Shown here: positions 18,713 to 64,000 of the stretch, one piece after another
How positions within the stretch are numbered: position 1 is the stretch's first letter
Layout: each line of letters starts with the position of its first letter
The notes under the pieces: generated by a model
The model's database searches: none
What the model was told of the DNA's origin: nothing
What the model saw: only the letters and a program-made list of their open reading frames with translations
Assembly (NCBI GenBank): GCA_001692895.1
Contig: KV748177.1
Location: 3,286,001-3,350,000 of the forward strand
DNA from: Cenococcum geophilum 1.58
Taxonomy: Eukaryota; Ascomycota; Dothideomycetes; Gloniales; Gloniaceae
DNA: 64,000 nucleotides
Direction: 5' to 3'
Translations under genes and position numbers: made by a program

Positions 18713-20791
18713 AAAATTATATAGTGGCGTAGAAGTCTAGGGGCCATTTTAGTCCAAAATTGCGTTTAGGTCCAGTTTGATAAAGCACCTTATAGGCATC
18801 TACGCCTCTACTATAAATATAATATATATCCTTTATAAAGCCTAAAAAGTTCTTCCGGCCTAAAAGGTTCTTCCAGCCTATATATAGGTTTTAAGGTTAT
18901 AACCCACGCTTATAATATATACGTTTAGCTTTCTATAAATAGTAAAGCCTTTACTTTTATATATATACAGTAACAGTATCTAATTATTCTATATATAATT
19001 AATGGCCGTCGAAAACGGACTCTGCACCTGTACGTGGTGACGGCTACGAACCTGGTCTTCGAAGTTCAGATCCAGAGCCAACGCAGAGACGTCGCACAGC
19101 GTGCGGACAGGACCTGGTGGTGGTTGTGGGCGTTAAGGGCGGTGGTGAAAAGTTTTCGGATGGTGAGATCTTGAAAACCACTACTGTTGGCCCTCTATAA
19201 TACGACAACCACTACTATTCTCCTATCTAGGGCACCTGTACGATCCAACATGGATATACAGTATTCGATAGCATCCCCCGACCCCTAACAGAAAGCATCA
19301 ACAACCTCTTATATTAACGAATGAGCGAACGCAAACGAGCAAACGAATAAGTAAATATACGGCCCCTTCTAACCCCCAGGGCGATCGCCCGCGGAGCATA
19401 CGGTCACTTGCCGTACTGCCGTAATACTACTAAAGCGACAGCCGGATACAACCCCATATAGTTTTCCTTATCTCCTCTCAACGGAGTGGTGCCCCTAGAG
19501 AGGGCCTAGTAACTGGGGCCTAGGTATAAAAGATACCCAGGTACATACATCCCGCTTTTGGCTTTTAGTGTTAGAATAGTAGAACGGATAAATCCCCCTT
19601 ACGCCTTCAATAGGCCCTAGGGGGGGGAAGGTATGGCGTATATAGTAATAGTTAAATAAGAGATAGCATATAGGGGATGGCTAAGATATAGGAAACAATA
19701 ATAATATAGTAATTAATTAGCAAGGCCTAGCTGGGACATAGTAAACCCTAGCTTAGATAAGCTAGAGAAGGAAGCAGTAGTTTCTAAGGAGTTTAAACAT
19801 CTAAGGAGGATAGGATGTAGCCGTAGGCCCATAGGGCTACCGCTATAGACGGATATAGCAAATCGGGGTTTTTTATCCTACTGAGGTGGCTTATAGGGTT
19901 TTTCCTCCCCCTAGCAGTAAGGGTTTTTTCCCGTTAATATTACTTTTCCCTTATATACGGAGTAGTCTGTATAGGGCTAGATAGTATCCGTATTAGACGT
20001 TAATTAAAGAAGAATTATTATATATAATTAATATAGTGTTTTAAATACTATTCTAGCGTTTAGAAAGCTTTAATACCAGAAGTATAAAGATTTTAGCTAT
20101 AATTTAATACGAGTTAGGATTAAACCGTATTTAATAATAATAAAAAGCTTACTAGTAAAGCCGCTGCTAAAGAGGTAGTAGTAAGAGTATATATAAGGTT
20201 AATAAGGAAGAGACAGCTAAAGGCGGTATAAATCTCTATCTATAACTAGTTAAAGATTAGATAGCATTAAGCTAAGAGATTTATTAAGTAGTGTAATTAA
20301 AAGATATCTTGGTTGCGATTTTCTAGTGCGTAAAGTCTTAGAAATAGGCTCTATTATCTTTATAAGGGTTATTAAGTACTCTTTATTACTTTACTTCCTA
20401 GCTTCTATATAAGAATAATATACTTAAAAGGGCCGGTTAAGTACCCTTGTATTCTAGTTACATTACAGCCGTAATAGGAAATTAAGATTTCTTAGTTATT
20501 ATTCTACCGGAATTTTTCTTTCTAATTTTAACACGCGTATATGGTATAGGCGGGAATTGGCAAGAATATATAATGGTTTTTACTAATATATTTAACTAAC
20601 GAAGCGTAATTATATAAGGCTTTAGCGTAGACTAGCTTTGGTATATAATAACCTTACGGGCCGATCTAAATAGTCTCTTACTAGCTATAAATTTAGCCCT
20701 ATTATAGAGGGTGGCTAGATTGCTAATCCGTAAATTTATTAGTTTTTAATTTTTCCTACTAGTATATTATTAACTCTATAGGCCTAGAGCT
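18713..20791. repeat. RIP-affected repeat remnants with a less mutated island
   Basis: 18713-18995 and 19560-20791 are dominated by TA, TAG and CTA words with few CpA dinucleotides, as RIP leaves behind, and no long frame survives. No domain could be read. The part at 19009-19560 looks different: it keeps CpA and ordinary composition (for example CCAGAGCCAACGCAGAGACG) without being a recognisable gene. The right end, 20787-20791, is the target duplication GAGCT of the gypsy element. Confidence 0.55.
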
Positions 20792-20995
20792 TGTGATAGT
20801 TCGTCTATATAGCTACTATTAAGGCGTCGTTAGTTACGGATTAACGTTGCCCTAATGTTGCCCCGACAACCGAATATGTACATAGTCGTCTACCGCGCCC
20901 CTTTCTTTAAGCCCTTACCTTAGTCTATTTATAATATAGCTTCTAGAGCCCTTAACGCCTTACCTTATTAATTTATAGATTTGCTAGCCGTAATA
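20792..20995 (+). repeat. Left (5') LTR of the gypsy element
   Basis: 204 bp, beginning TGTGA and ending in a RIP-altered form (TAATA) of the TGACA seen in the right copy. It aligns without gaps to 27112-27315. The mismatches I see are C/T or G/A transitions, as expected from RIP. Confidence 0.92.
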
Positions 20996-22519
20996 TTAGA
21001 CTAAGGTTAACCCTAATTAGCCTATAGAGGCGATATAATACTAGGTTTAACGGTTAAACGCGTAGCTAGACAGATCTGTTTTACCACTATAACTATAAAC
21101 TAGCTAACCCACTAAAGCCCTACATTAAGTAGGCGGTTGCGGTAGTGGATTGGGCAGCTGGAAGAAGGGACTGCGGCAGTTGGATCGGGGGGATTGCCCT
21201 AATTGTAATCTCAGTAGCAAGAGGAATTGCCTAAGGAAGTAAAGAGAGATACTATGGCGAGAAAGAGCGCGTTAAGGCCTAGTGCGCTAGAGATAGCTAC
21301 CGACCCAACGCTGGCAACACGTAAGGAGCCTATAAACGCGTCACTTGAGCCGCCGGAGCTCTAACCGTACTATGGCGAGATAGAGCTTTTAGACAATATA
21401 AAGAGTAAATAGGACCGTCTTATAGCGCAATTGGAAGATGATAAGAACCCTATATACTTTAAGATAGAGATAAAGAGAGAGTACATAGCCGCGACTACCT
21501 AAAGCCTAGCCGCAATTCCTATAACCGAACTTATAAAAGAGCTAAAGCTCTAGGGAATATAAAGGAAGGCGATAGAATAGCAGATTGCTATGCTATAGCG
21601 TCTTATAAACAACTATGCGCATAAAGCTCTTAATATAAAAGAGGAAGCTTAAGCGAAGATAGCGGAGCTTAAGGAGTACCTAGATAATAGGACAGACGAG
21701 CTCTATAAGGCTAATTAGAAGATATTAAGAATAGGCCGCAAGGTCACTATATAAGCCCTAGATTAGGAAGATAGCGAGTAAGAAAGTATACCGTTACGGA
21801 CAATATAAGAAGGGACACTACTCTCTTAGATGAGCAGCGTTATAGGTTTAGAACGCACGGCAAAGTTTCTAAACCTACCTACGCTAATAGATGGGAAAGA
21901 GCCTACCTATCGTGCCTAGAGTGGCTATATATAAAATAAGCTTTAATTTAATGCAGACTGGTTTTATTAAGACAACCTAGATTAGGAAGAAGATATAAAA
22001 GTAGCGTATATTAAGATATATATAGGCGGTAAAGCTTATAACTACCTCTTATTTTACCTAAAAGTAGAGCGTAATATAGGACGTAACCCTACTAGTAAAG
22101 AAGTACTTAAGTTCCTAAAGAACGTCTTTAAGGACCTAGATTGCCGCATTAAGGCCTAGTAGGAACTTAAAGGCCTTAAAATGCTATACTTAGGAGACTT
22201 TAATAATTTCTAATTTAACTTTATACAGCTGGCAAATATCTTAAGGATGCCACAAAATTAGTAAAAAGAGGAGCTTTATAATAAGCTTTATAACAACCTA
22301 CGCGTCTAAATAAAAGTTAAGGTGGTAGATAAAGACTATAGCTTCTACGCCTATTATAAGACTGCCTAATAGTACGCCTAAGGTTTAAAGTAGATAGGTA
22401 AGGAACGAAGTGACTATAGAGCAGCCTAGGCTATTAAGAGAGCTTCTACTAAGGGCGCTAAAGAGATTAAGGGTTACTCCCCTTTCTAGTAGTCTCTGGC
22501 CCTAGTACTAGCTATAAAA

Positions 22520-22580
22520 GCACTAGATACCTACTATAACTACAGTAAACTAGGACACTATATTAATAACTACCCTATGC
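22520..22580 (+). pseudogene. Mutated gag zinc knuckle of the gypsy element
   Basis: The reading YYNYSKLGHYINNYP matches a CCHC zinc knuckle spacing (C-X2-C-X4-H-X4-C) in which all three cysteines have become tyrosine. TGT/TGC to TAT/TAC is a G-to-A change, that is, C-to-T on the other strand, as RIP produces. The histidine remains. Confidence 0.75.
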
Positions 22581-23869
22581 TAAGGAAGATAAAAGCTAAA
22601 GTAATTAACCGAACTAAAGAGTATGAGATAGTTACTAATTTAGTAGAGTTAGAAAATAAGTAGCTTTAGGAAAAGTCTTCTACCTAGAGTAGATTGGAGT
22701 AACTAATATAGCACCTATATAGTTAAAGGAGATCTTAGAAGGCGTAGCCCTTATAATACTATATAGGATCGCGCTAAGTGGCGTAGCCCTTAATATAGTA
22801 AGCCTACTTAACTTTAGTGCGGGCAGAGAGGCCTTTATACACTATAAGCTACGGCCAATTATTAAGTAATAACTATAACTAAAGTTCTATAAGATTAAGG
22901 GATAAGGAGTTGCTATATCTGGCCATAATAATTAGCAGATAGATATAATTAGATAGCTCTTTAGGGCTAACCTAGTTATAGACGGCCGATAAGTCCCTAT
23001 ATAGTTCCTATTCTGTAATACTAGCCGCTATAATCTTTTTATTAGTTATAGGTGGTTTAAGAAAACTAGGGCCCTTATTAATTATAAGCGCTAGGCCTTA
23101 GTATGGCGAACCGTAAGGAACTACTATAGTAGGTAGGACGTAATTATACTAAGAAAGGAGCTCCTACCCCTACTAATTAATGAGGATTACTAAAGAGACG
23201 CAGATTAAAGAGACGTATTGCTAGACCAAGAGCCTAGACTTACCCCCTAATATATCCTTAAATATACAGTTACAATTAAAGAGCTTTAAAAGAAAAAGCC
23301 CCCTACTAAAATTAAACTAGAGGGGTAAGCTAGGCTAAAGTAAACTATACGGACCTTATACAACTATAAGTATACTTAGAAGATCGATACTTAAAATACG
23401 ATTAGAAAAATGGAGGACCAGCTTTACTTTAGGCTAGCTTTACCGTTAAAGCTAAGAGTAAGGAGGCTCTTATTTACTAGGGAGTTTAAAGTAATAGATA
23501 TCGCGTTACTTAAGGTAGGTAACTTCTTATAAGGGGCGAAGCGTAAGGACGTAGTAATTGGGTATACTAGCCTCTATAAGATAGACCAGCTAATAGAGGA
23601 TAGAAAGGGATAAGACGCCCTACCTAATAATAAGGAGGAACTTTGCTGGCTTATCTATAAAAAGCTACTATAGCCCTACTAAGAATATATTGACAGCTTC
23701 TTAAAGGCTATATCTAATACGCTACCACTATATCGCGAGGGAGTAGACCATAACATTATTTTTAAAGGCGATAGCCGCGATCTAGCCCCTAGCCCGCTAT
23801 ATAATATATTATTAGAACAGCTAGAGCTTATTAAGGCCTACCTATAGGAGCACCTATAGAAGGGGTTTA

Positions 23870-24540
23870 TTATACTAAGCAACGTACCCTTTATAGCTCC
23901 GGTTCTATTTACTAAGAAACTAAAAGGGGGGTAATAATTCTACGTTAACTTTTAAAAGCTTAATATAATTACTAAGAAGGACCGCTACCCGCTACTATTA
24001 ATTAAGGAGACGTTAACCAGGCTATTAAGAGCTAAAATCTTTACTAAGCTAGATATTTAACAGGCTTTCTACTATATACGGCTAAAGGAAAAGGTAGAAG
24101 AGTTAACTACCTTCCGTATAAGGTACGGATTATATAAGTACCGCGTTATACCCTTCGGATTATATAACGGCCCTACGTCTTTTTAGAGGTTTATTAATAG
24201 CGTCCTTTTTAACTACCTAGACGATTTCTATACTGCCTATATAGATAATATCCTAATCTACTTAGACGACCTACTAGAGCACAAAGTCTATATTAAAAAG
24301 GTCCTATAGAGGCTTTAAAAGGCAGGCCTATAAGCGGATATTAAGAAGAGCGAGTTTAATATTACCAAGACGAAGTTCTTAGGTTTTATTATTAGAACTA
24401 ACGGGATTACTATAGACACTAATAAGCTAGCTATAATTAGGAATTGGGAGCCCCCTACTTTTATAAAAGGGGTGTAATCCTTCCTAAGGTTCTATAACTT
24501 CTACTAGGCCTTTTTAAAGGATTACGGCTAAGTTATATAA
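23870..24540 (+). pseudogene. Reverse transcriptase domain of the gypsy element
   Basis: The readable order is: VPFIAPVLFTKK, then FYVNF*KLN (from the family's R-x-C/V-D-Y-R-x-L-N), KKDRYPLLLI, AKIFTKLDI*QAFYYIRL, then FGLYNGPTSF*RFIN, then YIDNILIY in place of the catalytic YIDDILIY. The second catalytic Asp is changed to Asn by a G-to-A transition. Several TAG/TAA codons sit where Gln is expected. The domain is inactive. Confidence 0.9.
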
Positions 24541-24639
24541 CCGCTTAGTAAGCTTATAAAGAAGAAAGCATAGCACCCGCTAGGGGAGGAAGAGCTTAAA
24601 GTATTTAAATGAGTTAAGGCCCTAATACTATCTGGCAGT

Positions 24640-25070
24640 GTAATTAGGCACTACTTACCGTTCTAAGATACCTATATAGAGACTAACGTGAGTAATAGAG
24701 TAGTAGTTAGGGTGCTAAACTAGCTATAAGACGATGGGACCTGGAAACTAGTAGCCTTTTTCTTAAAGATAATATCCCCTAAAGAGATGCGGTATAAGAT
24801 CTATAATAAAGAAATACTAGCGGTAATAAGAGGCCTATAGAAATGGTGAGGTCACCTTGTCGGTCTCTAGCGTATACCCTTTATGGTAATTACAGATTAT
24901 TAAGCCCTTAAGTACTTTACCACTAAAAGGCTGCTAAGTCTACGGTAAGCCTACTAGGTAAACCTACTTACGGATTTCTATATGCGGATTATATATAGGC
25001 CAGGCACGGCAAATATAGTGGCTAATACCTTATTACGAAAATAAGAGGACCTAAAGATATAAAAGGAGAA
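24640..25070 (+). pseudogene. RNase H domain of the gypsy element
   Basis: Readable strings include IETNVSNRVVV (from the family's TDAS start), LVAFFLKIISPKEMRYKIYNKEILAVIRGL and ITDY*ALKYFTTKRLL, with IIYRPGTANIVANTLLRK at the end. This is the standard gypsy RNase H layout, interrupted by stops. Confidence 0.85.
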
Positions 25071-25489
25071 GGACGTGGCTATACGCACTATATGCTTAAT
25101 TAATCCCGCCCTTATAATCGCCACACTAGAAATAACCTCTAAGGACCCCCTAGTTACGGCGAATTGCAAATAGGAACTATATGAGCTAGTTAATTAGATC
25201 CTTTAGGCTAATTAAACTAGTAAATCGCTAGTAGGGCTATATTAGCTAGCTAAGCAAGACTAAAAGGGCTAAAAGCTCTAAGGAGGACTGCTTACCCGCT
25301 TTAGTAAGCTAATAGTCCCTAATACTAACTGCCTCCGTACCTACCTTATTGCGGAGGTATACTCTTACTAGGTAACCGCTTACCTAGGTAAGATAAAGAC
25401 TAGGAAACTTATAGTAGACTAATACTATTAGCCAGGACTACTATTAGACTATAATACCTACGTAAGAAACTATAGGACCTATAGGAGGA

Positions 25490-26450
25490 CCTATATACCC
25501 TAAAACAAAACCCTAGGCCTACTACACCCCCTACTAATTGGTAAACGCTACTAGCAGCATATCTCTTTTAATTTTAAGTCCTTCCTAACGGACAAAAAGG
25601 GCTTCGACAACGTCTTTATAGTTATTAATTAACTAGGTAAAAGAGCCTTCTTACTACCCTACTATAAAACTACTACCGTAGCTAATATAGTAAACCTATA
25701 CTACTAATACGTCTAACGCGTGTATAGCCTTCTAGAGACGGTTATATTAGATTAAGGACCCTAATTTATCTTAGCCTTTATAAATAAGCTATATAAACTA
25801 ACCGATATTAAGTAAAAGCTCTCTATATCTAGTTACCTATAAACTAATAGTAATATAGAGGTACTAAACTAGTATATTAACTAACGCTTAAGGCCCTTTA
25901 TTAACTACTACTAGGACAATTAGTTAGAGCTCCTCCCCTATATAGACTTTATATAGGTAATCTTACCGCATAAATCTACTAGCTTTATACTATATAAGCT
26001 AGAGCTAGGATTTAAGCCAAGGCTTTACTTTAACTAGGAGGAACGTATATAAGTAACCTTAATACCTTATAAGAAGCTAATATAATAAGAAGCTTAGGCT
26101 TTCGCATATAGGACCTAGGACGCAGTTAAATAGGTAAGAGATAACCTAGTAAAGGCCTAAGAGCGGTAGATAAGGCAAGCTAATAGGTACCGTTATAAAC
26201 TAGACTTTAGAGTAGGTAATTAAGTATATGTTATTAGGAAGGGCTAGGCTACTAACTAATTAAGTATTAAGCTAGATAGATAGCTTGTAGGGCCCTATAA
26301 GATTCTAGGCATAAAAGGACACTCGTATATTATTAACCTACCCCTAAATATAAAGATATTAAACGTCTTTTATGCTAATCGACTATAAAAGGACCTAGAT
26401 AACCCCCTACCGGGCTAAAATAGTAAGCTAAAGAAGCTAATCCTAATTAA
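25490..26450 (+). pseudogene. Integrase and C-terminal region of the gypsy element
   Basis: The integrase core reads DKKGFDNVFIVIN, then LLPYYKTTT, ILD*GPXFILAF-type, then LN*YIN*RLRPFINYY*DN and LLPYIDF. A region follows that reads LVGPYKILGIKGHSYIINLPLN, typical of the post-integrase chromatin-binding region of fungal gypsy elements. Multiple stops. Confidence 0.8.
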
Positions 26451-26558
26451 TAGCGAGCCGAAGTATAAGATTAATAAGATCCTTACTAGTAAAACCTACT
26501 ACGGAAGGCTATAGTATAAGGTTAACTAGGTAGGTTATAACCTAGACAATACCTAGTA

Positions 26559-26875
26559 TCCCTTACGCCGTTGAGGCGCAATATAAATGTGGCCCGTGCG
26601 CGAACAACAAAAAATCAAAATGTCTCTACTATGGAATCTACATAGCTTCCTGCCATAACTATATCACTGTAATGGGTTGTAAACGTACTTCCAATGATGC
26701 AGATCTTATGCAGCCTAATTAATATATTATTTCGAAGAACAGGTGGGCTAAAATCCCACTGCTAGAGCCTGGTCGCCACCAGATTTTTTGAAGTTCCTTT
26801 TGCCAAGACCTTGATTGAATGCACGGGTTCTAATTGGCCTGTTAGTTATTGCGCCTATATCAACGGCGTAAGGGA
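26559..26875. mobile_element. MITE with 25-29 bp terminal inverted repeats, inserted in the gypsy element
   Basis: The left end reads TCCCTTACGCCGTTGA then GGCGCAATA. The right end, read on the other strand, has the same two words with an extra TATA between them. The copy is flanked by TA on each side (26557-26558 and 26876-26877), the duplication used by Tc1/mariner-type transposases. The 317-bp interior has no coding capacity and keeps CpA dinucleotides (for example AACAACAAAAAATC), unlike the surrounding element. This suggests a later arrival or little RIP. Removing it rejoins gypsy coding sequence (LDNTQYP-type / NADGFIGAPYKIK). Confidence 0.85.
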
Positions 26876-27111
26876 TAACGCGGACGGCTTTATTGGCGCC
26901 CCCTATAAGATTAAGGCGTTTTACGACAAGAGACCCTACGATGCCGGACCGCCTATACGGCTGTTGTAATGGCTAGAGGTGTATTATAAGGACGTAGATC
27001 TAGAGCCCTTGGAGGAAGATAATAAAGTAGAGAAGGATGGAAGGGCAAGACGGATAAGGAGAGCCTGACTATAAGGATTAAGGGCGATCCTCCTGGCTTA
27101 AAGGGGGGTGA

Positions 27112-49518: not shown

Positions 49519-51350
49519 ATGGCAGACCTAAGGAAGCAAGTCGATAAAGGCCAGGAAAAGTAGAGGCAGGGAGCCGACCTTACGTCTATACCTGACGTTA
49601 ACAACTACATTAAATTTAAAGTTCTTGAATATGAATATTTTAAGCTTATAAACGTTGACCTATAAGAGTAATACTAGGAAGACTTTGCGGGCTTTACGGA
49701 AGCTATCTTTAAAGCATATAACCCTACTACCATCTATAACCTACGGATCCTCTTACGTAACTAAGGTGTATAGGTTAAAAGGAATATACGAGTTACTGTT
49801 ATATAGTCCTTATATAATATAATATACGAGAAGAACCAAACGGAATAAACTAAAGAGGAAATCCTAGACCAGTTTTAAGAAACTAAGGAACTCTTTACTT
49901 CTTCTAAACTTAATATAATCGCTAGCCTTATACCTAACCCACTTAACTAAATTTATTCTATAAACCTAAGCAGTTTTAGAATTAATCTTATGGGCTAAAG
50001 TATACCTAGTACTTAAGTTACGGACCGTAATACCCCTGTAAACCAAAATACGGACCAAATTACCCCCGTTATTTAAGTCACAGATCTATAAGCTATATAT
50101 CCGCAAACTATAAATCCACAAGTTATAGATCCGTAACCTACCTAACTAAAAACCTACGGTAAGGAGCTAGCTAACCTGGCTAAGCTCTATACCGACAAAT
50201 CTAAGTATAGCGGCGAAAACGATAACTTTAACTTTAAACTAACTATCTTTACGGACCTCTGCCAGAAGGATGATATTCCTAAATAAGAGTTTAGCCAAGC
50301 CTACTCTACTATGCTGCGCGGCCTAGCACTCGACTACTATTATACCAACCTTAAGAGCAACCCCCTTAGTGTTCCTTTTAATAAGCTATGCGAAGCTATA
50401 TATAACTACTTTGAAGGACCGGAATATAAGCGTGATATCCTTACCTAATGGAATGCGACCAAGCTACGGACCGTAATGGACAAGAACACTGAAAAATCGA
50501 CTATAGAGTGCCTGCAAATCCTTATTAAAGACCTCCGCCACCTATAGCACGGTCTTAATATTAAGCTTTAAACGGACGACTTCCTGTATAATAAACTTAT
50601 TACGGCCTACTAGGAAGTAGAGCCCTGTAAGTACGCCTACTATAAGCCTGCAGATACCTTAGCTGGCCTTATTAATAATTTACGCTCCTCTATTATAATA
50701 TACGAAGTCTTAAACCCACTAGGCAGCACTTAAGCCTTTATTATAGATATTTAATATCCGTAAATAGACTTAGACGTCTACTTTACGGACCGCCGCTACC
50801 GCTAGTAGCACCTGTACCGACTAAGTCCTACCCGTAACCCCCGTAGCAACCCCTATAGATAAACCAGCTAGAAGTGCTTTATATGCGGTAAGGAAAGATA
50901 TTAGTCTATAAGGCATACCTGGGAAGAATGTAACAAGTTTAGGAAGAGACTTAATAGCCGTATTAACCAGTTTATTTTGGAATACGAAGGAGAGGAAGTA
51001 GAAGAGCCCCCTAATAAGTTAATAGAAGCCCTTATAATTGACTTTAACTTAGACGCTTAGGAATAAGAGACCTTAGAGATATTCCTAACTACTTTTAGAC
51101 CTTTTACGGACAGCTAAGCCTTTAATATTACGACCGTATTAGCCGACCGTTCCTTTATATACTTAGTTGTGCCCGAAAACTATTCTGTAAGCACCCCTAT
51201 TATAGACATTATAAATTATAAGTAGGACCTATTTGCATATATTACTACAGAACGCTATACCCCTAAAGAATTCTACGGCGTTATAATTGATATAGGTGCC
51301 TTTAAGAAGTCTACTGTAGGTTACGGACAATACCTTATATATAGGACTAC
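49519..51350 (+). pseudogene. Gag and protease of the copia element, 5' part
   Basis: Reads through many stops. Gag: ELANLAKLYTDKSKYSGEND, FTDLCQKDDIPK*EFSQAYSTML and EAIYNYFEGPEYKRDILT*W are typical copia gag stretches ('Y-T-E-x-x-K-Y-x-G ... F-L-D-x-C'). A Cys/His box follows, then the protease GVIIDIGA (family D-T/S-G-A; the Thr is now Ile, a C-to-T change). The nested element inserts directly after YLIYRTT. Confidence 0.8.
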
Positions 51351-51548
51351 TGTTACGGCTCGTATAAATGCCTCTGAACCGAAGCTTGTAGAATGCTGTA
51401 TTACGAAGATACTAAGCTAAGGAGTAGAAGAAGGTTGAGGAGAGAATACGTTTATATACAAGAGCTAAGTCTCTAAGCGAGCCCCTGACTAGGCCCCCTG
51501 TCTAGGTTGCATGTAACATCGTAGGGGCGGTACCCCAGCACCGTCACA
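51351..51548 (-). repeat. Left LTR of the non-autonomous element
   Basis: 198 bp, nearly identical to 56343-56540; the visible differences (for example TTACGGCTCG versus TTATGGCTTG) are C/T transitions. Confidence 0.92.
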
Positions 51549-51599
51549 TCACCCCCCCCTTCCAAAAAAGCCTGCCCTTAGGCTTTATCCCCTCGTAGA

Positions 51600-54500
51600 A
51601 GAGAAAGAAGAGAAAAAAAATCTAGCTTTTGGCGCTTAATCGCGATGCTAGTTGACATAGGACTTACAGCAGTCCTGCAGCTCCTGCTGCTGCGAGGAGT
51701 ATATCGCTATACCTTGTTATACTTAGGGCAGGCAGCCGTCCTGCAGCTCCTGCTGCTGCGGGAGGTATATCGCTAGGAGCCCTCCGTTGGTAGTCGTTCC
51801 TCCTCCTAGAACCCTCTAGAACTCCAGTACCTCTTAGCTCTCTACCCCCTCCTTTAATATGGCGCGCCCCGAGCCATAAAAAAAAGAAAACCCCCCTACT
51901 CCCCCTCTTATAAAAAGGCAGGCGAAAATAAGGGTGGGAGAGTTAGGGAAACGTAGCTCGTATGCATATCGGCACAAGATCTTATCTATTTCCGCAGGCG
52001 TATTAGCGCAGTAACTTATCTAGTTCTAGCAGTACGATGCTAGCAACGAGGTGTATTCTAAGGAGCAGAGCTACCTTATATACAGTTGCTACTATAGGTA
52101 GAGTAGTACAAGTTGGTTATAGTGCTACAGGCAGAGTAGTAGGTGTTGGTTAGCTACAGTGATATAGCAAGGTATTATATTTAGCTGCAGGTGGAGCAGT
52201 AAAGGTTAATTAGCTGCAGGCAGAGCAGTAGAGGTTTAGTAGTAGTACGGCACTAGCGACGGGGTTGTATTCGCAGGCGTATTGGCACGAAGTCTTATTA
52301 ATAGGTTATAGTTCTATAGGCATATCGGCGCGGAGCTTATTAATTCGGGTAGCAGTATAGTGCTAGTGACGGGGTTGCCTTTTAGAGAGCTATGCTTTAT
52401 CTAGCTGGGTATACCTAGGGAGCAAAGCTCTACCTAGTTGTGTTTGGGTTATAGGCTTATCGGCACAACAGTAATCGGTATCGCAGGCGTATCGGCGATG
52501 TCTTGTCGGTTTAGGTAGTAGTACGGTGCTAGTAGTAGGGTCGTATTCTAGGGAGCAAAGCTCTCCCTTATATATAGTTAATACTGCGGGTAAAGCAGTA
52601 GAAGTTGGTTGTAGTGCTATAGGTAGAGTAGCGATGGTTAAATCGGGATCAGCTGCAGGCGGAGCAGCAGGAGTTAATTAGCTGTAGTAAAGCAGCAAGG
52701 TGTTAGTTTAGCTGCGAGAGGTATATTACAGCAGAGGTCGGGTAAAGTACTACAGGCAGAGTAGTAGAAGTCGATTATAGTGCTATAGGCAGCGCAGCAG
52801 AAGTATTAGCTTAGCTGCGAGAGGTATACCGCAGCAGAGGTCGGGTAGCTATAGTAACGTAGCAAGGTAGTAGTTTTAGCTATAGGCGGAGCAGTAAGAG
52901 TTAATTAGCTGCAATAAGGCAGTAAGGTGTTAGTTTAGCTGCAGGCAAAGCAGCAGAGGTTGAGTGTGGTACTGCAGGCAGAGCAGTAGAAGTCGATTAT
53001 AGTGCTGCAGTAAGGCAGCAAGGTATTGGTTTAGCTGTGAGAGGTACACCGCAGCAGGGGTTAGGTGGCAGTGCGGTGCTAGCGTTAGATGGTAAATAGC
53101 AGGCGTATCGGCGCTATCGGTAGTCGATTAATCGCAGGCGTATTAGCACAACGGTAATTAAGATTGCTCGTAGGCATATTAGCGCGAGAGGTTGTTAGGT
53201 TCGCTCGCAGGTATATCAGCGTAAGAGCTTATTAGTTGGGTAGTAGTATGGTGCTATCTACGGGGTTATATACTAAGGAGCAAAGCTCTACCTTATATAT
53301 AATTGTTACTGCTAGCGGAGCAGTAGAAGTCGGTTAGCTGCAGGCAGAGCAGTAAGTGGTTGATTAGCTGTAGGCAGAGTAGTAAGGGTCGGTCGGCTGC
53401 TAATAAAGTAGCAAGGGATGGTTAGCTGTAGGTAGAGCAGCTAGGGTTTATCGTCATAGTAGTACGGTGCAAGCGTTAGGTGGTAATAGTGGTTAAACGT
53501 TTGGAGCTCAATCTATCAGTTGGCCAGTAGATTGTAGGCGTATTAGTACAATTGGTCTATCGGTTAGACTATAGGCGTAGCAGCATAGTTGTTATCAGGT
53601 TAGCGTAGGGCATGCAGCCTTCCTATTACTGCGAGAGGTATATATTATTAGGAGCGCTTTATAGTCGTCATTCCTTCTCTTAGAACTTCTTAGAACTTTA
53701 GTGTCTCCTAACTCTACTACCCCCCCCCCTTTAATATGGCGCGCCCTGAGCTATATAAAAAAAGAAATATAGCTCGCATGCGTATTGGCACGAGCTCTTG
53801 TCTATTCGGTAGCAGTACGGTGCTAGCGGTAGGTAGTAATAGCAGGCATATCGGCGCTATCATTTGGTTGGGTTTGCTTTTAAATCGCATTTAGGTTGCA
53901 TTCGAATCGCATTTAGATTATAGGTATAACGGCGCGATTATTATCTAGTTTATCTAAATTGATTTTGTTGTTAAAGCTTATATAGCTTAGTATTAACCTC
54001 ATTATCGAAGTATATAAATGCCTAAGGTAAGCTTATATAACTCAGTATTAACTATGGTCGTTCCTTAGTATGCGTAGCTTAGTATTAGTCGAAAAGGATT
54101 ATCGTAGGTTAAGAAGAAGACAATTAAATTAGTAAGGGAGCAGTTGATTGTTAATAAACTTATACGGTCGTTGTTAAAGTTATAGTTCGTGTCGCAGGCA
54201 TATTGGCATGATGGTCGGTTAGGTTCGCGTCCGAATTGTGTTCAGGTTGCGTTTGGATTGCATTCGGATCGCAGGCGTATTAGCATAATCCGTCTATTGG
54301 TTTCTCAAGGTCTATCGTCAATTGGTAGGTAGTTCGAGACATTGTCGATTATTTAATTAATTAATATGCCGTCAACTAGCAGAGATGCCATCGTATTACT
54401 AGTTATAGTTAATTAATTAGTTAAAGGTGTGCTATTAATCGTAGTACATTTAACCAGTTATCGTATAAGTATGGTATTAAGAGACGCGCCGATAGGTTAA

Positions 54501-55720
54501 TTTTTGTTAAGGTATTCGACTAGTCAAGGGATCTACTGTCAATTATAGTATATTCGATAATTTGGCGGGAATTAACCAGGGTATCGGTATATGGTCTGTT
54601 AATATTCTTGTGATTTACGGAATGCACAGGTCGTTGTTAAATAGTAGACGTGTTCACGTATTATCAAGATATTCGAGGGTACGCTATAAAGTCGACAGGC
54701 GTATTTGAATACTTATATTCGATCAAGGATATTACTATAGGTAATAGATATCTAGGATTAATCAAGGACTCGTAGGAATGCCGTTAATTTGGCATATTAA
54801 GTCGTTATTAGAGGTATCAAAAGAGGTATTAAAAGAGGTATTAAGAAGGTACGTGTCGATATTTTGATTCTTGTCAGGGAGTCGAAGGTATTAAAGAAAG
54901 AGTGCGCTTTAATATTTAAGTATAGTTATATAAGGGTAAGCTGTTATATAGCGTTCGATTTAATAAGATACTATTAGAGAGCAGATTCGTATATTATCGT
55001 TTAAGGACTACCGTCAAGTGGTAGGCAGTTTAAGGGTAGTTAATAAATGGCATCGAGAGGGTACGTATCAATATTTCGATTCTTGTCACAACTGGTAAGA
55101 TATACTTTCGTAATAGTAGGCTGTCTTATTTATAGAAGGTCGTATAAATAGCTATTAAGAAGAACGCGTTAATAGTTTGTAAGAGGTTATATTAATAAAT
55201 AGGCTCATCTATAGAGCTATTGGAGAGTGCTATAAATCGGAATAATTCTCCTAATCTGTTCTCCTAATTAAGAGTGCCATAAATTGCTTAAATTCTCCCC
55301 TATATATAGGATTGTAATACTTGCAGATATATTCGGCCGTAAGATCGAGGGACTATCTAGGTCGATAGTAAGGTTTAGGTTGGTTAGGTATAGTGGTTAT
55401 TAATAAGAACTTAACGGGTGTCTATAAGGGCGTTTATAGATAAGTTGGAGAGTCGTGTTATAGGTATATTGGCGTAATAGGTTATTAGGTTTGCTTTTAA
55501 ATCACGTTTAGGCCGTATTTAAATCGCATTTAGATTATAGGCGTATTAGCGCGATCGTTGGTTAATTAGACTGTAGGCATATTAGCATAGTTAGTAATTG
55601 GGTTTAGGGGTTTAGGGTAGCAGTATAGTGTAAGCATTAGGTCCTTCCTAATTAATTTTATCTCTCCTTATACGGCTTAGTATCAATTAGGGTGGTTATC
55701 GCAGCGTAGTAGCCAGAGGA
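51600..55720. repeat. Array of interspersed short hairpin words
   Basis: Four word families recur. A: GCAGGCGTATTGGCGCGA-like, about 20 copies (for example 51994, 52273, 52483, 53096, 53135, 53843, 54263, 55530). B: CTGCAGGCAGAGCAG-like, well over a dozen, mainly 52130-53420. C: TAGCAGTACGGTGCTAG-like, nine copies (52027, 52239, 52350, 52516, 53067, 53241, 53457, 53809, 55616). D: GGAGCAAAGCTCTACC-like, about five (52062, 52420, 52551, 53277, with a weaker copy at 52384). B, C and D each hold inverted arms of 4-5 bases, so they can fold into short hairpins. C is often followed by GACGGGGTTG and then D. The function is unknown. Confidence 0.75.
51725..53765. repeat. Internal segmental duplication within the non-autonomous element
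   Basis: A block near 51725-51880 (GCAGCCGTCCTGC ... TAGGAGC ... AGTCGTTCCTCC ... CTTTAATATGGCGCGCC ... AAAAAAAG) recurs in altered form at 53605-53765, including the words TTTAATATGGCGCGCC and AGCTCGTATGCATAT / AGCTCGCATGCGTAT that follow. The two copies bracket the densest part of the hairpin array. Confidence 0.7.
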
Positions 55721-55737
55721 CAATGGGTAGGATTTGT

Positions 55738-55915
55738 TTTAGAGGACTCGCGGATAATATACACCTACCGCCTAATGGCACGGCGCGGGTTATAAGTTAG
55801 CTTGTTTTAGCCGTTGGCCCAAACCTAATGCATACTAGAGGACTTCGCGGACAACATGCACCTACTGCCTAATGGCACGGCTTGGGTTATGTCTTGGCTT
55901 ATCTTAGCCAATACT
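55738..55915. repeat. Tandem pair of about 105-bp units
   Basis: AGAGGACTCGCGGATAATAT at 55738 and AGAGGACTTCGCGGACAACA at 55843 each begin a unit containing CACCTAC, GCCTAATGGCACGGC and GGGTTAT. The copies differ mainly by C/T changes. Confidence 0.8.
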
Positions 55916-56342
55916 ACGGAATTAGTTCCAGGCTTAGTAACAGGATTACCGATTTTGTTCCTTGCAGCACTAGGCTAAGTCTTAACCAAGGTTATCTCTA
56001 AAGCTCGTATAACTCCGTATTAGTTAAAAAGGTTAGGGGGGGTTCTAGAGAGCCGCGCTCGATCTAGTAGGGTAGTAGTAGGCTGCAAGCCATCGTGTCC
56101 TTAGCTATCGAAGTTGGCATTTGATCGTAACTATAGGAGACCTTCTAGCTGCTTGAATACCGGCTCCCGGTTTAATAATAGCGACTTGACGCGTTGACGA
56201 CGCGCAGCTAGGGGTGTTCGACGCGTGTTCTCCGCAAGAACACGCGGGATAGGGGTGGGAGATTATCTAGGCCTTCCTAGGCGAGGTAAAGAGGGAGCTC
56301 CAAACAAATGAAGTCCCCCCTGGGTGGGTGAGCTTAGTATAA

Positions 56343-56540
56343 TGTTATGGCTTGTATAAATGCCTTTGAACCGAAGCTTGTAGAATGCTGTATTACGAAG
56401 ATACTAAGCTAAGGAGTAGAAGAAGGTTGAGGAGAGAATACGTTTATATATAAGAGCCAAGTCTCCAAGCGAGCCCCTGACTAGGCCCCCTGTCTAGGTT
56501 GCATGTGACATCGCAGGGGCGGTGCCCCAGCACCGTTATA
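56343..56540 (-). repeat. Right LTR of the non-autonomous element
   Basis: 198 bp, TGTTATGG...CGTTATA (RIP-altered TG...CA), followed by the target duplication ACTAC. Confidence 0.92.
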
Positions 56541-56545
56541 ACTAC

Positions 56546-57960
56546 CGTAAATGATAATACGGATATTAATACTACGTAAAATGGGGCCGTAAACGTCTAA
56601 TTCGGCATTGGCTTAACCACATTAATTGGATTAGTTGCAGTTAAGACCCTAATTAGCCTAGTTAACTTCCACGTAGTAAAAGCAGACACCCCTTTTCTAC
56701 TCTGTCTTGCGGATATAAATAGGCTATAGGTCTACTATAACAATATTACGGACACCGTAATTGGCCCTATAACTGCCCTAGGAAGTAAGCATATTACCCT
56801 ACTAATTGTACGACGATTCGGACACCCGTTTCTTATATAGGGAGAGACTTTACGGACCTACATTTAGGAATCTTTTGACTATAACCCGTGCTACCTTACT
56901 AGTACTGAGATCCACCGCCTGTACTGCTATTTTGGCTACCTATTAGCCGAAAAACTATATAGAGTCCTTAAACGCTCTGGACATGACGTTAATAAGAAGG
57001 TAATTAACCACCTAACTAAATACTGCTCCTTCTGCTAGAAATATAGACGTTCCCTAGGCCGATTTAAGTTCACCCTTTATAAGGACCTTAACTTTAACTA
57101 CTTAGTATACGTGGATATTATGTATATTAACGGCAGTCCAGTATTATATATAATCGACGAGGCAACCCGCTATTAAGCCGCCCGTTAGTTATAAAATATA
57201 TCCATAAAATATACTTGGGATATTTTACGGACCTGCTAGATTGACATATATGTTAGACCCCCTTAGTATATCACCTACGACGCCGGTAGGAATTTTATCA
57301 GTAAGAAATTCTAGTAGTATGCTACGGCTATGGCTATATTAATAAAAGCTGTCCTAGTTGAGGCGCATTGGTTTATTGGGCTTGTTAAGCGAGCTTACTT
57401 AGCCTTATAGAGAGCTTACTAGATTATTATGGACGAATGTAAGGATATCTAAAAGGAACTGGCTCTATAGATGGCCGTAAAAGCTATTAATAACACCGCT
57501 GGCCCTGACGGACTAGTACCCACCCTCTTGGTCTATGGAGCCTACCTAAGGATAAGTAACCTAGGCCCTCCTACCCCGTCTATTATGGAACGAGCAGCTG
57601 TAATACGGAAGGCAATGGCCGAAATAGTTAAATTACGGGCCAAATAAGCTGTTAATAACGCCCTGTATTACCGTAACGGACCTAACACAACCTTAGTTTA
57701 TAACCTCCCGCTTAATTCTAAAGTCCTTATATGGCGTAAGAGCGGCAACTGGACTAGACCTTATTGTTTACTAGCTATAGAAGACGAAACGTGCTATATA
57801 TAACTTCCTAGCGGACCGACTAACTTTAGAAGCACGTCCGTAAAACCCTACTTTTGGCCCGAAAACACTAATGACGTTAAGCTAGATAAGCTAGAAGTAA
57901 CTGCTGAATTAGACGAACTAGAAGCACCCTTACCTACCCTAGAAGTCCCCTAGAAACCTA
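56546..57960 (+). pseudogene. Copia integrase region
   Basis: Read through stops: RRFGHPFL, then EIHRLYCYFGYLLAEKLYRVLKRSGHD, a His-His-Cys-Cys-like region ending CSFC, then DLNFNYLVYVDIMYINGSPVLYIIDEATRY (catalytic D), YITYDAGRNFISKKF (catalytic D, from 'D-x-G-x-N-F') and ALQMAVKAINNTAGPDGLVPTLLVYGAYLR. This is the copia integrase order. Confidence 0.85.
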
Positions 57961-59901: not shown

Positions 59902-60172
59902 TGTATAATTATAGCACCTGTCGTACTAACCGCGTGCTTACGCGTTTGGTACGCCGAGTACGCGTTTACGCGTTTAGTGCACTAACCACCCGCTTACGCG
60001 TCTGGTGCACTTCTAAAGCACTAACTAATTAGGGGGGAGGCGCATTAGTATATAGACTACGTAGTCTGCTTTATATAATCGATAGTCACCACTATCCTAA
60101 AGAGCATATAATACTATACGTATTTCGTGCCCCGGGATACAACTCACTCGTGCTATTAAGTTAGTACGAATA
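59902..60172 (+). repeat. Right LTR of the copia element
   Basis: 271 bp, TGTATAAT...CGAATA (RIP-altered ...CA end), followed by target duplication ATAGG at 60173-60177. Confidence 0.9.
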
Positions 60173-63100
60173 ATAGGAATTATGTGTCACATTTTTATAA
60201 AATAGTTAATAACTACTATAATATTTATAAACCTATTACTATTAAGCAGGTTAACTACAAAGTTAATTAAGATATCTCGCTATCTTTATATTAGAATTAG
60301 CAATAGTTAAAGTACTCCTTATTTCTTTATATAAGAGGTCTTCCTACGCACGCACATTCTGTATACTTAAACGTATTTTTGTATATAGTTGTGCATTATA
60401 GGCCAGTAATATATTTGTTAGATAATCTTATAGGTCTTTATATAGCTAGGGTGCTCTACTATAGGGGAATTGTGTATAAATTTAAGTATCTTAAATCGTA
60501 AGGGTTTGGAATTTAGGACTACTATCTTCTGTTAATAGTATAACCGATTATTATAGATTTCGCATTTAGCGAGTGTAATATCCTTATATTACCGTTTCCC
60601 TGTTTAAATTGCTTTTATTATATCTGCTATTTAGGGGTCGTTCTTATATTTGTGCTTTGTTAATTTATCGATTTCTATATTCTACTTATTAATTTCTAAT
60701 TTATTCCTATTAAGCTCCGCGTCTGGAAATATAGGGCGTAGTTTCTTAAAGCATTTAGGGGGCAGTAGAATTTATAATTAATTTATAATCTGTTCGTCAG
60801 AGGCGCTTATAGGTAAGTCCTATAATTGTTATATTAATAAGTTAGGCTTCTAATTAAGTTTGCTAGGTTAGTATATAATCTTAAAGTTAAATTATAAGAG
60901 GTATTTAGCCTAATAAATTTAGCGCTGCGTTAATTGCTTTATAGTTATAAAGTACTGTAGGTTTTTATGGTCCGTTAATACGCGTATTAGGAATAACAAT
61001 CCTTTAAGTTTTAGACGCCATTATTTAAAGCATCTAATAATTATAAGCAGTTCCTTATTATATATCTTATAGTTTAATTTAGCAGGGGTAAGTTTCCAAG
61101 AGAGAAAGGCTACTAGGCGCAGCTCGCCGTTTTTATTATATTGCGATAACACTTCTCCTAATGCATAATTAGACGAGTCTGTTTTAATAATGCATTTAAG
61201 GTCCAGATTAAAGTGGGTAAGAATTAGAGCAGTTATAAAATGATATTTTAGGTCGTTAAAAGCTTGTTTATATTTAGTAGTCTATTTAAATCTTATATTC
61301 TTCCTTATTAAGTTTACTAATAGCTAAATAATTTTTAAGAAGTGATTAATAAATTAATAGTAAAAATTTGTAAATCCTAGAAATCCTTAGATGTTTTGTA
61401 CACTACTAGGACTTTCCTAGTTTATAATTATAGCAATTTTCTTAGGGTCTATTTGATTCCATCGCGGGATATAATTAGGCCTAAGTATGTGACTTTGGAC
61501 GCATGGAACTTGTATTTCTTAATGTTGCATTATAAGCCCGCGTCTTATAGGCATTTAAGAACTATTTAGATGTACTTCTAATACTTAGAAAGCGAAGATA
61601 AATAGATTAAGATATTATTAATATACGCGGTAATAAATATATTAAGGAATTCGCGAAGCGTATTATTAACGTATTACTAAAACGTACTAGGACTATTCTT
61701 TATACTAAACAGCATTACCAGGTATTTAAAAAGTCCCTATTATATACAGAAAGCCGTATACTTTTCATCTCCTTTATAAACACGGATTTAATTAAAGGCA
61801 GTGACTATATTAAGCTTTATAAAGTATTATGCTTTCGCTAAGTAGTTAAGCGTTTCTTAAAGTAGAGAAATTGGATATTAGTTTTAAATTATAATCGCAT
61901 TTAGGGCTCAATAATTAACACAGAACCTTAAGCCTCCTCTAGGTTTCTTAATAAATAGTATAGGCGAGGCGAATAGTAATTAACTAGGGTAAATAAATCC
62001 TTTCTCTAGGTGCTCTTTAAGGTATTATCGCATTACTAGCAGCTCTTCTCGTGATATACCGTATAACGGGCCGAACTTTAGCGTTATACCAGGTTTAAGT
62101 TCTATCTTAAAATTATATTTATTTTAATACGGGGGTAGTTAGTTTACAAATTATTTCTTAAACATATTAATTAGATCGTAATATTCTTTAGGTATAAGAG
62201 GTTGGGGGTTAATATATTGCTTTAGTTCCAACGCCTTCTTAATGTCTTTTAGTGTTATAGTAAAGATCTTATAGTCTTGTTTTCTTGCTAATAAATAAAA
62301 GGGTGCGGCTTATATTATACAAATTTTAAGGGGTTTTAATATATTATCTTCGCATTCTTTACCGTAATTAGTAGTTATAACTTTCTTATATTAGTTCGGG
62401 GTTTATAGTAAGGGTAATTTATATTATATTAAATTCGAATAGTCGTGTATATGTTTATAGGGTAAGTAGTATTTTAAGTAATAACTTTGGCAGTAGGTTA
62501 TACGGAATTTTAGTGTTTCTTTAACCTAGCTAATTAAAGGGTTGTATCATTTTAGCTATCTGTGTCCAAGTATTACCTTATAATACTTTAAGGGTATTAC
62601 AAATAGGGAAATATATTTAAGGTATTTACCTATTTACATCTTTATAAGAGCGTAGTATATTAGTTCGCTATATATTAAAGGCTTACTATTAAAGCCTTAT
62701 AGGCCTTAGGGCTTATTAAATTTCTTTAAATTTAAGCGTTAAGTTTTCGCGTAGTTCGTATTAATAAAGCCTATACTAGTAGCTCTACTGTCTATAAGGA
62801 TTCGTACTTCCTTCCATTTTCCAAATATTTAAATTTCGCTAAGTATATTAAGGGAGTTATATTATATATTAGCGCTAGAAGAGCCTAGATACTTATACTC
62901 TTCCACTTCTTATCCTAAGGCGCGACTTGGCCCTAGGATAATTCGTTTTCCAAATTAACTAAAGGTAAGATGCTTTACGGCGACTAAGTATAATTTATAA
63001 AATAAGTATAATTTAAGGACTAAGAGGAGCTACGGCAGACTTTTTTAAAAGGGTAAGTTTAGCAATCCCTTTAAATATATCCCTTTTTTCTATATCCAAA

Positions 63101-64000
63101 ACATTCTCTATTTACAGCTTATATTCTTTATTTATCGGTTCCTAAGGGTATATAGAATTAAGTAGCGTTAAAGTCCATAGGGTTATATATAGGGCTTTTA
63201 GGTCTTAGAGACGGATCGCGCTTTAGGGTATATATTGGTTTTATAGAGTTTTAAACATAAGGTATAGTTAGCTTTAAAGAATAAGTCTACTTATTATATT
63301 AGAGGTCTTTATTAATTCGTTAACATATTATAGCAAATTCGGGTAAGTCTTTTAGCAGTTCTCTACCTACTAACTATACTCTAATTTTATCTAAGATAGC
63401 TTAACGGAGAGCAGCAACTCTAGCGGCTTCATTCTAATCCAGTTCACTAATAAGGCCTAAAAATTCCGAAAAAAAGCTAGTAAAGTCTCGGTTCCGTTAT
63501 TGTAGGGTTTTAAGTTTAGTAATAGCTGTATATTCGCGGCTGGCGTTATTATACGTTCGTTCTAATAGAGAGATAAAGATTTTGGAATTAATAAAGGTGC
63601 TATTATAGAAGAATAGGTCCATAGTTTGTATAGCATCTTTACTTAATTAAGATATTCTATAGCTAATCTTGCTAGCTTTAGTAGGGTATTAGTTATAGTT
63701 TATTAAAAGTTTAAGACAGAGCTTAGTTATAAAGGGATATAGGTTATTTTAATTTCTATTAAATATTAAAGAGTTAGGGAGCTTTTTAAATTTTATAGTA
63801 GGTACCAGGTTTATTATAGGTATGGGTTAAGCTACCGTTACTAGTTTAGGGTTTATATTTAATAGGTTAGGTTCGCATATAGTTATTTTAATTTTGTTTA
63901 TAGGTATTACTATTAGGGTCTCTAATGTGAGTACTTTAGCGTTATAGAGTTCTTTGCGTATTACTTTAATTAATTACTAATACTAAGCTTTTAGTATAGT
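60173..64000 (-). mobile_element. Right part of the minus-strand Ty3/gypsy element (RT and upstream), running off the window
   Basis: Minus-strand reading from about 61960 down gives RGGLRFCVNY*ALN, then FIKLNIVTAFN*IRVYKGDEKYTAFCI, FSIKNSPSTF**YVNNTLREFLN, YINNILIY (from YIDDILIY) and ASKVTYLGLIISRDGI, a clear gypsy RT. RNase H lies below it, to about 60900. Sequence from 62100 to the window end should hold protease and gag, but RIP makes domains hard to read. The 5' LTR lies beyond 64000. Together with 47428-48822 it forms one element split by the copia insertion. Confidence 0.8.

Follow-up and report, generated by a model that had tools for sequence, protein, structure and literature searches.

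A protein-less LTR element of Cenococcum geophilum and its interior array of hairpin words

The DNA analysed here, referred to as the window, is a stretch of 64,000 nt from Cenococcum geophilum 1.58 (contig KV748177.1, positions 3,286,001-3,350,000, forward strand), and all positions given below are the window's own. Between 51351 and 56540 it carries an element bounded by two long terminal repeats (LTRs) of 198 bp, at 51351-51548 and 56343-56540, which differ by 11 transitions and 0 transversions; strandless copies of the target-site duplication ACTAC flank them at 51346-51350 and 56541-56545. No stop-to-stop frame of more than 95 amino acids overlaps 51300-56700, and the 4.8-kb interior (51549-56342) has no gag or pol of its own. 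An earlier description made from the sequence alone (hereafter the sequence-only reading) had reported the two LTRs, the duplication and the lack of a retroelement protein, all of which stand. The interior is occupied by four families of short recurring words, A to D, intermixed in a main array at 51955-53862 (minus strand). One of them, word A, is a hairpin whose loop is conserved and whose stems covary, and the same words are found in a second family of elements with different LTRs.

The element, its family and an autonomous relative

The sense strand of the element is the minus strand, because its polypurine tract, its primer-binding site (PBS) and a TATA-like box all lie there; the plus strand was rejected as sense on the same grounds, and it was the antisense strand that the sequence-only reading had followed. 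In the sense direction the LTR at 51351-51548 is the 3' LTR (minus strand), adjoined by the polypurine tract GGAAGGGGGGGGTGA (51549-51563, minus strand), whose counterpart in an autonomous relative, L045, was judged by eye. At the other end, the PBS ATACTAAGCT (sense; 56331-56340, minus strand) lies 2 nt inside the 5' LTR (56343-56540, minus strand). Its exact complement, the self-primer AGCTTAGTAT, is found within the LTR at 56401-56410 (minus strand) and is predicted to stand at or near the 5' end of the RNA, with the TATA-like box TATATAAA (56443-56450, minus strand) 40 nt ahead of it. This 10-nt complementarity between the PBS and a self-primer carried by both LTRs occurs at a fixed position in 21/21 elements of the family and in L045. 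We infer that the 10-nt self-primer forms the 5' end of the RNA and marks the start of transcription. The element is best called a non-autonomous derivative of the self-primed (Tf1-like) Ty3/gypsy group. No tRNA was detected in the window, in L018, in L045 or in L048-L050, and Rfam gave no match at E values up to 1 in 51300-56700, L018, L011 and L048-L050; a tRNA- or 5S-derived element was rejected on these two results.

The 21 elements compared, the window copy and the 20 loci that next best match the first 198 bp of its interior, form a non-random sample. Further copies, a search for which the sequence-only reading had proposed, can be found in the genome: the pattern at the junction of interior and LTR occurs at 692 sites with at most 2 mismatches (0 for the reversed control), the LTR gave 1904 first-look candidates genome-wide, 40 of which were scored, and LTR pairs are present in 20/20 other loci examined. 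Exact 5-bp target duplications were recognized by eye in 12 of these 20 loci, the remaining 8 being unscored or imperfect. Outside the array, blocks are collinear between copies and about 77-94% alike. The differences among eight collinear copies amount to 2574 transitions and 27 transversions, and 95-96% of their CpA/TpG positions vary; transition-rich CpA/TpG variation is the mark of repeat-induced point mutation in filamentous ascomycetes. Such strong C-to-T decay supplies many mutated copies that can serve as a yardstick for the conservation of stems.

The two LTRs of the autonomous relative L045 are 97.6% alike; its PBS and self-primer are identical to those of the window family, and its frames match CCHC, aspartic protease, RVT_1, RNaseH, integrase and SH3_Tf2-1 domains. 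It shares with the window element the LTR ends, the PBS and self-primer, a motif in the 5' leader and an inverted-repeat motif next to the polypurine tract. The leader motif, GCCTAGGAAGGC-CTAGATAA in the sense direction (56263-56282, minus strand), is a candidate packaging signal conserved across elements; it is found with at most 3 mismatches in 21/21 of them and twice in L045, and is predicted to fold in both the window copy and L045, the base pairs differing between the two. The motif beside the polypurine tract (51568-51585, minus strand), present with at most 3 mismatches in 21/21 elements and in L045, is predicted to form a hairpin of 7 bp in L045 and of just 3 bp in the window copy, which has decayed. 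Among 100 junctions listed of the 692, 4 have, at a distance of 3.1 kb on the sense strand, one of the best 150 matches to reverse transcriptase (RT), to which the comparison was confined; on the antisense strand 0 do. Because of these sense-side RT matches near junctions, and because of the terminal signals and self-primer shared with L045, the window element is likely to be mobilized in trans by the proteins of an autonomous relative. L045 also contains a tandem repeat array of GCAAAGCTTCGTG-like units, immediately beyond the autonomous element (48-915 of that locus).

The PBS word is repeated inside the elements. In the window copy, the stretch at 53984-54085 (minus strand) is bounded by two exact copies of ATACTAAGCT, at 53984-53993 and 54076-54085, and across the 21 interiors (window and L009-L028) there are 34 internal copies in the sense and 0 in the antisense orientation. 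These copies could let the self-primer anneal within the element.

Word A and the hairpin array

Counted with one common set of match thresholds across elements and loci, the words recur in the window element 16/0 (A), 15/1 (B), 5/0 (C) and 3/0 (D) times in forward/reverse orientation, and 0/1, 0/1, 0/0 and 0/0 times in the rest of the window. The 21 elements together contain 274:0 A, 232:1 B, 96:0 C and 49:0 D words (forward:reverse), the single reverse match being one of word B. Words and their linkers are repeated together, and the cassette of C, a spacer and D pointed out by the sequence-only reading is real. That reading was also right in recognizing the word families; the most informative of them, word A with its hairpin and conserved loop, received no special notice in it. 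Perfect hairpins with a 5-bp stem and a loop of 3-14 nt, compared with 100 dinucleotide shuffles of each part of the element, are in excess in the array (32 vs 17.2 ± 4.7, 0 shuffles as high) and in the stretch adjoining the left LTR (21 vs 7.8 ± 3.5, 0 as high), and are near the shuffled level in the middle of the element (46 vs 37.4 ± 8.2, 18/100 as high) and in its right part (13 vs 9.8 ± 4.1, 23/100 as high).

Word A has a conserved 12-nt loop, the core of which, AGGCGTATYRGC on the plus strand, is nearly fixed, and variable stems. Its arm pairs vary from site to site and mostly stay complementary, as in the hairpins at 53094-53119 (ATAGC/GCTAT around the conserved loop), 53529-53554 (GATTGT/ACAATT on the plus strand) and 53566-53591 (GACTAT/ATAGTT on the plus strand), all assigned to the minus strand; further types are CTCGT/GCGAG and GATCGT/ACGATC. 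Outlying A words with imperfect stems lie on the same strand at 54189-54291 (two) and 55455-55593 (three). The arms of the window copy are paired at 66/114 positions, compared with 47.3 ± 5.2 after permutation (0/2000 permutations as high), and permutations reach the observed value at most 9 times in 2000 in 19/21 elements (15 times in L017 and 94 in L024). Since C-to-T decay alone can create or destroy pairs, the arms were also coded as purines and pyrimidines, and in this form at most 24/2000 permutations are as high in 21/21 elements, with most of the pooled excess falling at pairs three and five. Over 405 A sites, 57% have at least 4 of 5 pairs, compared with 2.4% of random places with the same spacing. 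At one stem position these sites present all four Watson-Crick types (AT 241, GC 33, CG 32, TA 17), which is more than transitions alone can yield.

A gap-free alignment of 120 distinct A sites was drawn from the window copy, L018, L011, L015, L013 and three loci of the second family (L048-L050). In it, 79.9% of stem cells are paired (64.8 ± 1.0 when shuffled), double changes occupy 114 cells (47.4 ± 12.0) and the covariation score is 0.545 (0.290 ± 0.016), none of 500 shuffles being as high on any of these measures and slid controls scoring at most 0.161. A hand-picked subset of 54 of these sites, without L018, L015 and L013 and, by eye, without 9 weak sites, retains 59 double changes (17.8 ± 6.4) and a score of 0.553 (0.280 ± 0.024; slides at most 0.139), and on this subset RNAalifold adds a G-U closing pair. 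Words B and C have arms that pair yet seldom vary, and it is word A that carries the argument for a selected structure.

Two further observations bear on the strand in which the hairpins would form. Wobble pairs in A stems, summed over offsets 1-5 on the plus strand, number 196 observed for 313 expected (G-T) and 285 for 390 (A-C), an asymmetry that leans weakly to the sense strand and is confounded by mutation context. At 80 A sites with at least 4/5 pairs from six elements, the mean predicted stem probability is 0.54 in the sense and 0.21 in the antisense RNA, with the sense value higher at 68/80, so that sense RNA is predicted to display A hairpins better than antisense. Kissing between A loops was rejected as a candidate interaction, the reverse-orientation A core not being found in the 21 elements.

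The array is non-collinear between the window copy and its relatives, the flanking parts being collinear. With L018 as reference, 22 length changes were recorded, L018 being longer in 8 and shorter in 14. Where it is longer, words stand at both ends of the change in 6/8 rows, namely L012 (B-B), L014 (A-A), L015 (D with C-D), L025 (A-C with A-C) and a change common to the window copy and to L011 (A-B with A-B), and no words do so in 2 (L015, L020). Of the 14 rows where L018 is shorter, 4 have words at both ends, 5 at a single end and 5 at neither. Words and arms span 937/1890 array bases, so that ends falling in words are partly expected by chance. These changes fit template switching by RT, a mechanism they would suggest without proving it.

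The words are also present beyond the first family. One A arm type has 548 matches genome-wide at no more than 2 mismatches; of 100 that were listed, 53 have a listed family anchor on the same strand no more than 5.5 kb away, 0 are near an opposite-strand anchor only and 47 have no anchor among those listed. Two array-rich loci without listed anchors, L046 and L047, proved to be members of the first family with both LTRs present. Of four isolated loci, L051, whose fetched sequence includes one LTR, belongs to the first family, and L048-L050 do not. L050, 2.57 kb long, lies between direct repeats of 168 bp that are 98.8% alike, and TATAG can be read by eye at either end; L048, which has tandem repeats, and L049 have parts in common with it. 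All words in L048, L049 and L050 are in forward orientation (A 3/2/1, B 1/1/1, C 0/2/2 and D 0/1/1, respectively). No similarity was found between the L050 family and the LTR of the first family, save 77 bp (78%) and an 18-bp match at E 0.1. The 77-bp segment lies inside the L050 interior (reverse complement 2368-2444) and is possibly a trace of recombination between the families. The sense strand of L048-L050 is, tentatively, probably the minus strand as well, judging from AAAAGAAGAG near the LTR and a 7-nt self-complementarity.

Possible roles of the array

We favour, with a probability of roughly 0.58, the view that the window holds a minus-strand, non-autonomous, Tf1-like self-primed Ty3/gypsy element copied in trans, whose hairpin-array RNA is read at the A loop. 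Transcription of the minus strand would proceed from the LTR, starting at or near the self-primer, and the RNA would be copied in trans by the proteins of an autonomous relative sharing the self-primer and terminal motifs. Numerous separate hairpins would stand out in this transcript from a background that is poor in G and folds weakly. Gag, or some other protein, would read the conserved A loop and thereby aid packaging or the formation of a ribonucleoprotein, and the A stems would merely hold the loop, which would leave them free to change when both arms change. RT jumping between like words may lengthen, shorten and swap the array, also between LTR families. The sequence-only reading had likewise envisaged the structured RNA of a non-autonomous retroelement, and this idea is borne out by the priming and terminal signals common to the Ty3/gypsy relative and by the covariation of the A stems; a function of the array and recognition of the A loop are what these sequence features would suggest.

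Among proteins that might read the loop, we would first consider Gag or a different packaging partner, a tentative choice to which we would give less than even odds. More doubtful is the idea that the A hairpin serves as a transferable module for RNA recognition, whose loop is read by one protein and which has been amplified within the interior and handed on by template switching between non-autonomous families with unrelated LTRs. If this were true, parasites of the retrotransposition machinery would share an entry pass that their helper lacks.

The rival that survives best, in our judgement an unlikely one, is that only the ends of the element are needed and that the interior is neutral filler, grown by slippage or copy-choice duplication of a few hairpin-bearing segments. 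The length and order of the array vary widely, and L025, a 2.15-kb element with only 8 A words, indicates that an element may be without much of the array. What duplication alone leaves unexplained is the change of both stem arms around a constant loop, the occurrence of every Watson-Crick type at a single stem position and the presence of one-orientation words in a second LTR family.

Several results weigh against recognition of the A loop, and some of them speak directly for neutral growth. With 1 mismatch allowed, the helper L045 lacks an A core, and so do eight 3.5-kb RT loci, L037-L044 (L037 overlaps L045, and these loci are not whole elements); the packaging of the helper itself thus seems independent of A. 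Independent double changes are few: for the 120 A sites, 6 pairs have a double change compared with 5.2 when shuffled (97/500 as high) and there are 17 further pair types compared with 16.6 (285/500 as high), and in the 54-site subset both measures are weak too (47 and 51 of 500 shuffles as high). These two measures, which are at chance for A, resist relatedness better than cell counts do, and A sites within an element are duplicates, so that independent events must be far fewer than the cell counts and the shuffles overstate them. The arms, which in A pair far better than permuted ones, surpass permutation (at most 25/500 as high) in only 3/17 elements for word B and 2/19 for word C. On the side of folding, shuffled flanks still give A stem probabilities of 0.43 in sense and 0.26 in antisense, so that the strand difference is partly one of base composition, and the A stems of the window copy are predicted poorly (0.14 at 10 sites, 0.31 with shuffled flanks). 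Folding of both strands, as the sequence-only reading had proposed, gave inconsistent results: the mean z of folding energy is -1.26 in sense and -0.63 in antisense for nine 200-nt array windows of the window copy, and -0.65 and -1.09 for 200-nt array windows of L018. Predicted bulk energy is only mildly below that of shuffles and favours neither strand; the evidence sits in the words, not in bulk stability.

Somewhat less probable again is a role of the hairpins as host-defence decoys, engaging small-RNA or double-stranded RNA (dsRNA)-binding machinery, or as protection of the transcript, rather than in packaging. Many short stems are predicted in the sense RNA, hairpins are common to elements with different LTRs, and A is absent from the helper L045, all of which would suit such a role; the stems, however, are of 5-7 bp, which is short for dsRNA-processing enzymes.

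That the element is a sink for small mobile palindromes, as the sequence-only reading had also considered, could account for similar hairpins in two LTR families and is very improbable: all but one B match of the 651 word matches share a single orientation, linkers are duplicated along with the words, length changes fall largely between like words, the words are nearly absent from the rest of the window, and among six extra array loci, both LTRs of the first family are present in L046 and L047 and one of them in L051, both LTRs of the second family in L050, and parts of the second family in L048 and L049. The least credible explanation is a decayed protein with a repeated peptide, the coding repeat against which the sequence-only reading had itself cautioned: repeat-induced mutation makes stops, which renders short frames alone weak evidence, but the words occur in all three phases in the 21 elements (A 102/92/80, B 83/79/70, C 38/29/29), many of their spacings are not divisible by three, and inspection by eye of 300-column windows revealed no consistent three-base periodicity in the changes.

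Comparison with known systems

Protein-less LTR elements (LARD, TRIM, Helenus) and self-priming are known already. To our knowledge, how protein-less LTR elements compete for the proteins of another element is poorly understood. A loop-fixed, stem-covarying hairpin array present in two LTR families offers a defined RNA motif in which binding, packaging or decoy roles may be sought. In a literature search that covered subscription papers and preprints only in small part, no description was found of an interior built from covarying hairpin words.

The closest likeness is to Tf1 and Tj1 of fission yeasts. The LTR of Tj1 measures 244 bp and the PBS of both is complementary to the 5' part of their own RNA (PMC4600332). 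The window element resembles them in its self-complementary PBS, its 5-bp target duplication and its short LTRs of 198 bp, and the integrase of its relative L045 ends in an SH3_Tf2-1 match; it differs in having no gag or pol and an interior consisting of a hairpin array.

LARDs have LTRs kilobases long, whereas those of the window element are 198 bp. LARDs such as Sukkula of plants are described, in the accessible part of one account, as protein-less elements that possess an internal domain and are presumed to be mobilized in trans, and for which a conserved RNA structure is claimed (PMC7215508). The window element is similarly protein-less and has a long internal domain kept between copies (blocks about 77-94% alike), but repeated covarying hairpin words are not mentioned for LARDs in that portion of the account (PMC7215508). 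TRIMs are non-autonomous LTR elements whose interior is nearly absent (PMC7215508), in contrast to the 4.8 kb found here.

Fungal Helenus elements have 5-bp duplications, are tied to Copia and are mostly primed by tRNA anticodon loops (PMC10886601). The window element shares with Helenus its non-autonomous LTR organization and its 5-bp duplication, and lacks the tRNA- or 5S-like LTRs of Helenus and Cassandra, none having been found in it. In Ty1, hairpins forming kissing loops serve both dimerization and packaging of the RNA (PMC5454406); these lie at the 5' terminus, whereas the hairpins described here are present in many copies in the interior and no A core in reverse was seen in the 21 elements.

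Elsewhere in the window, AT-rich stretches at 20001-27000 (31-41% GC) and 60001-64000 (about 30% GC) lie beside GC-richer regions and are probably mutated repeats.

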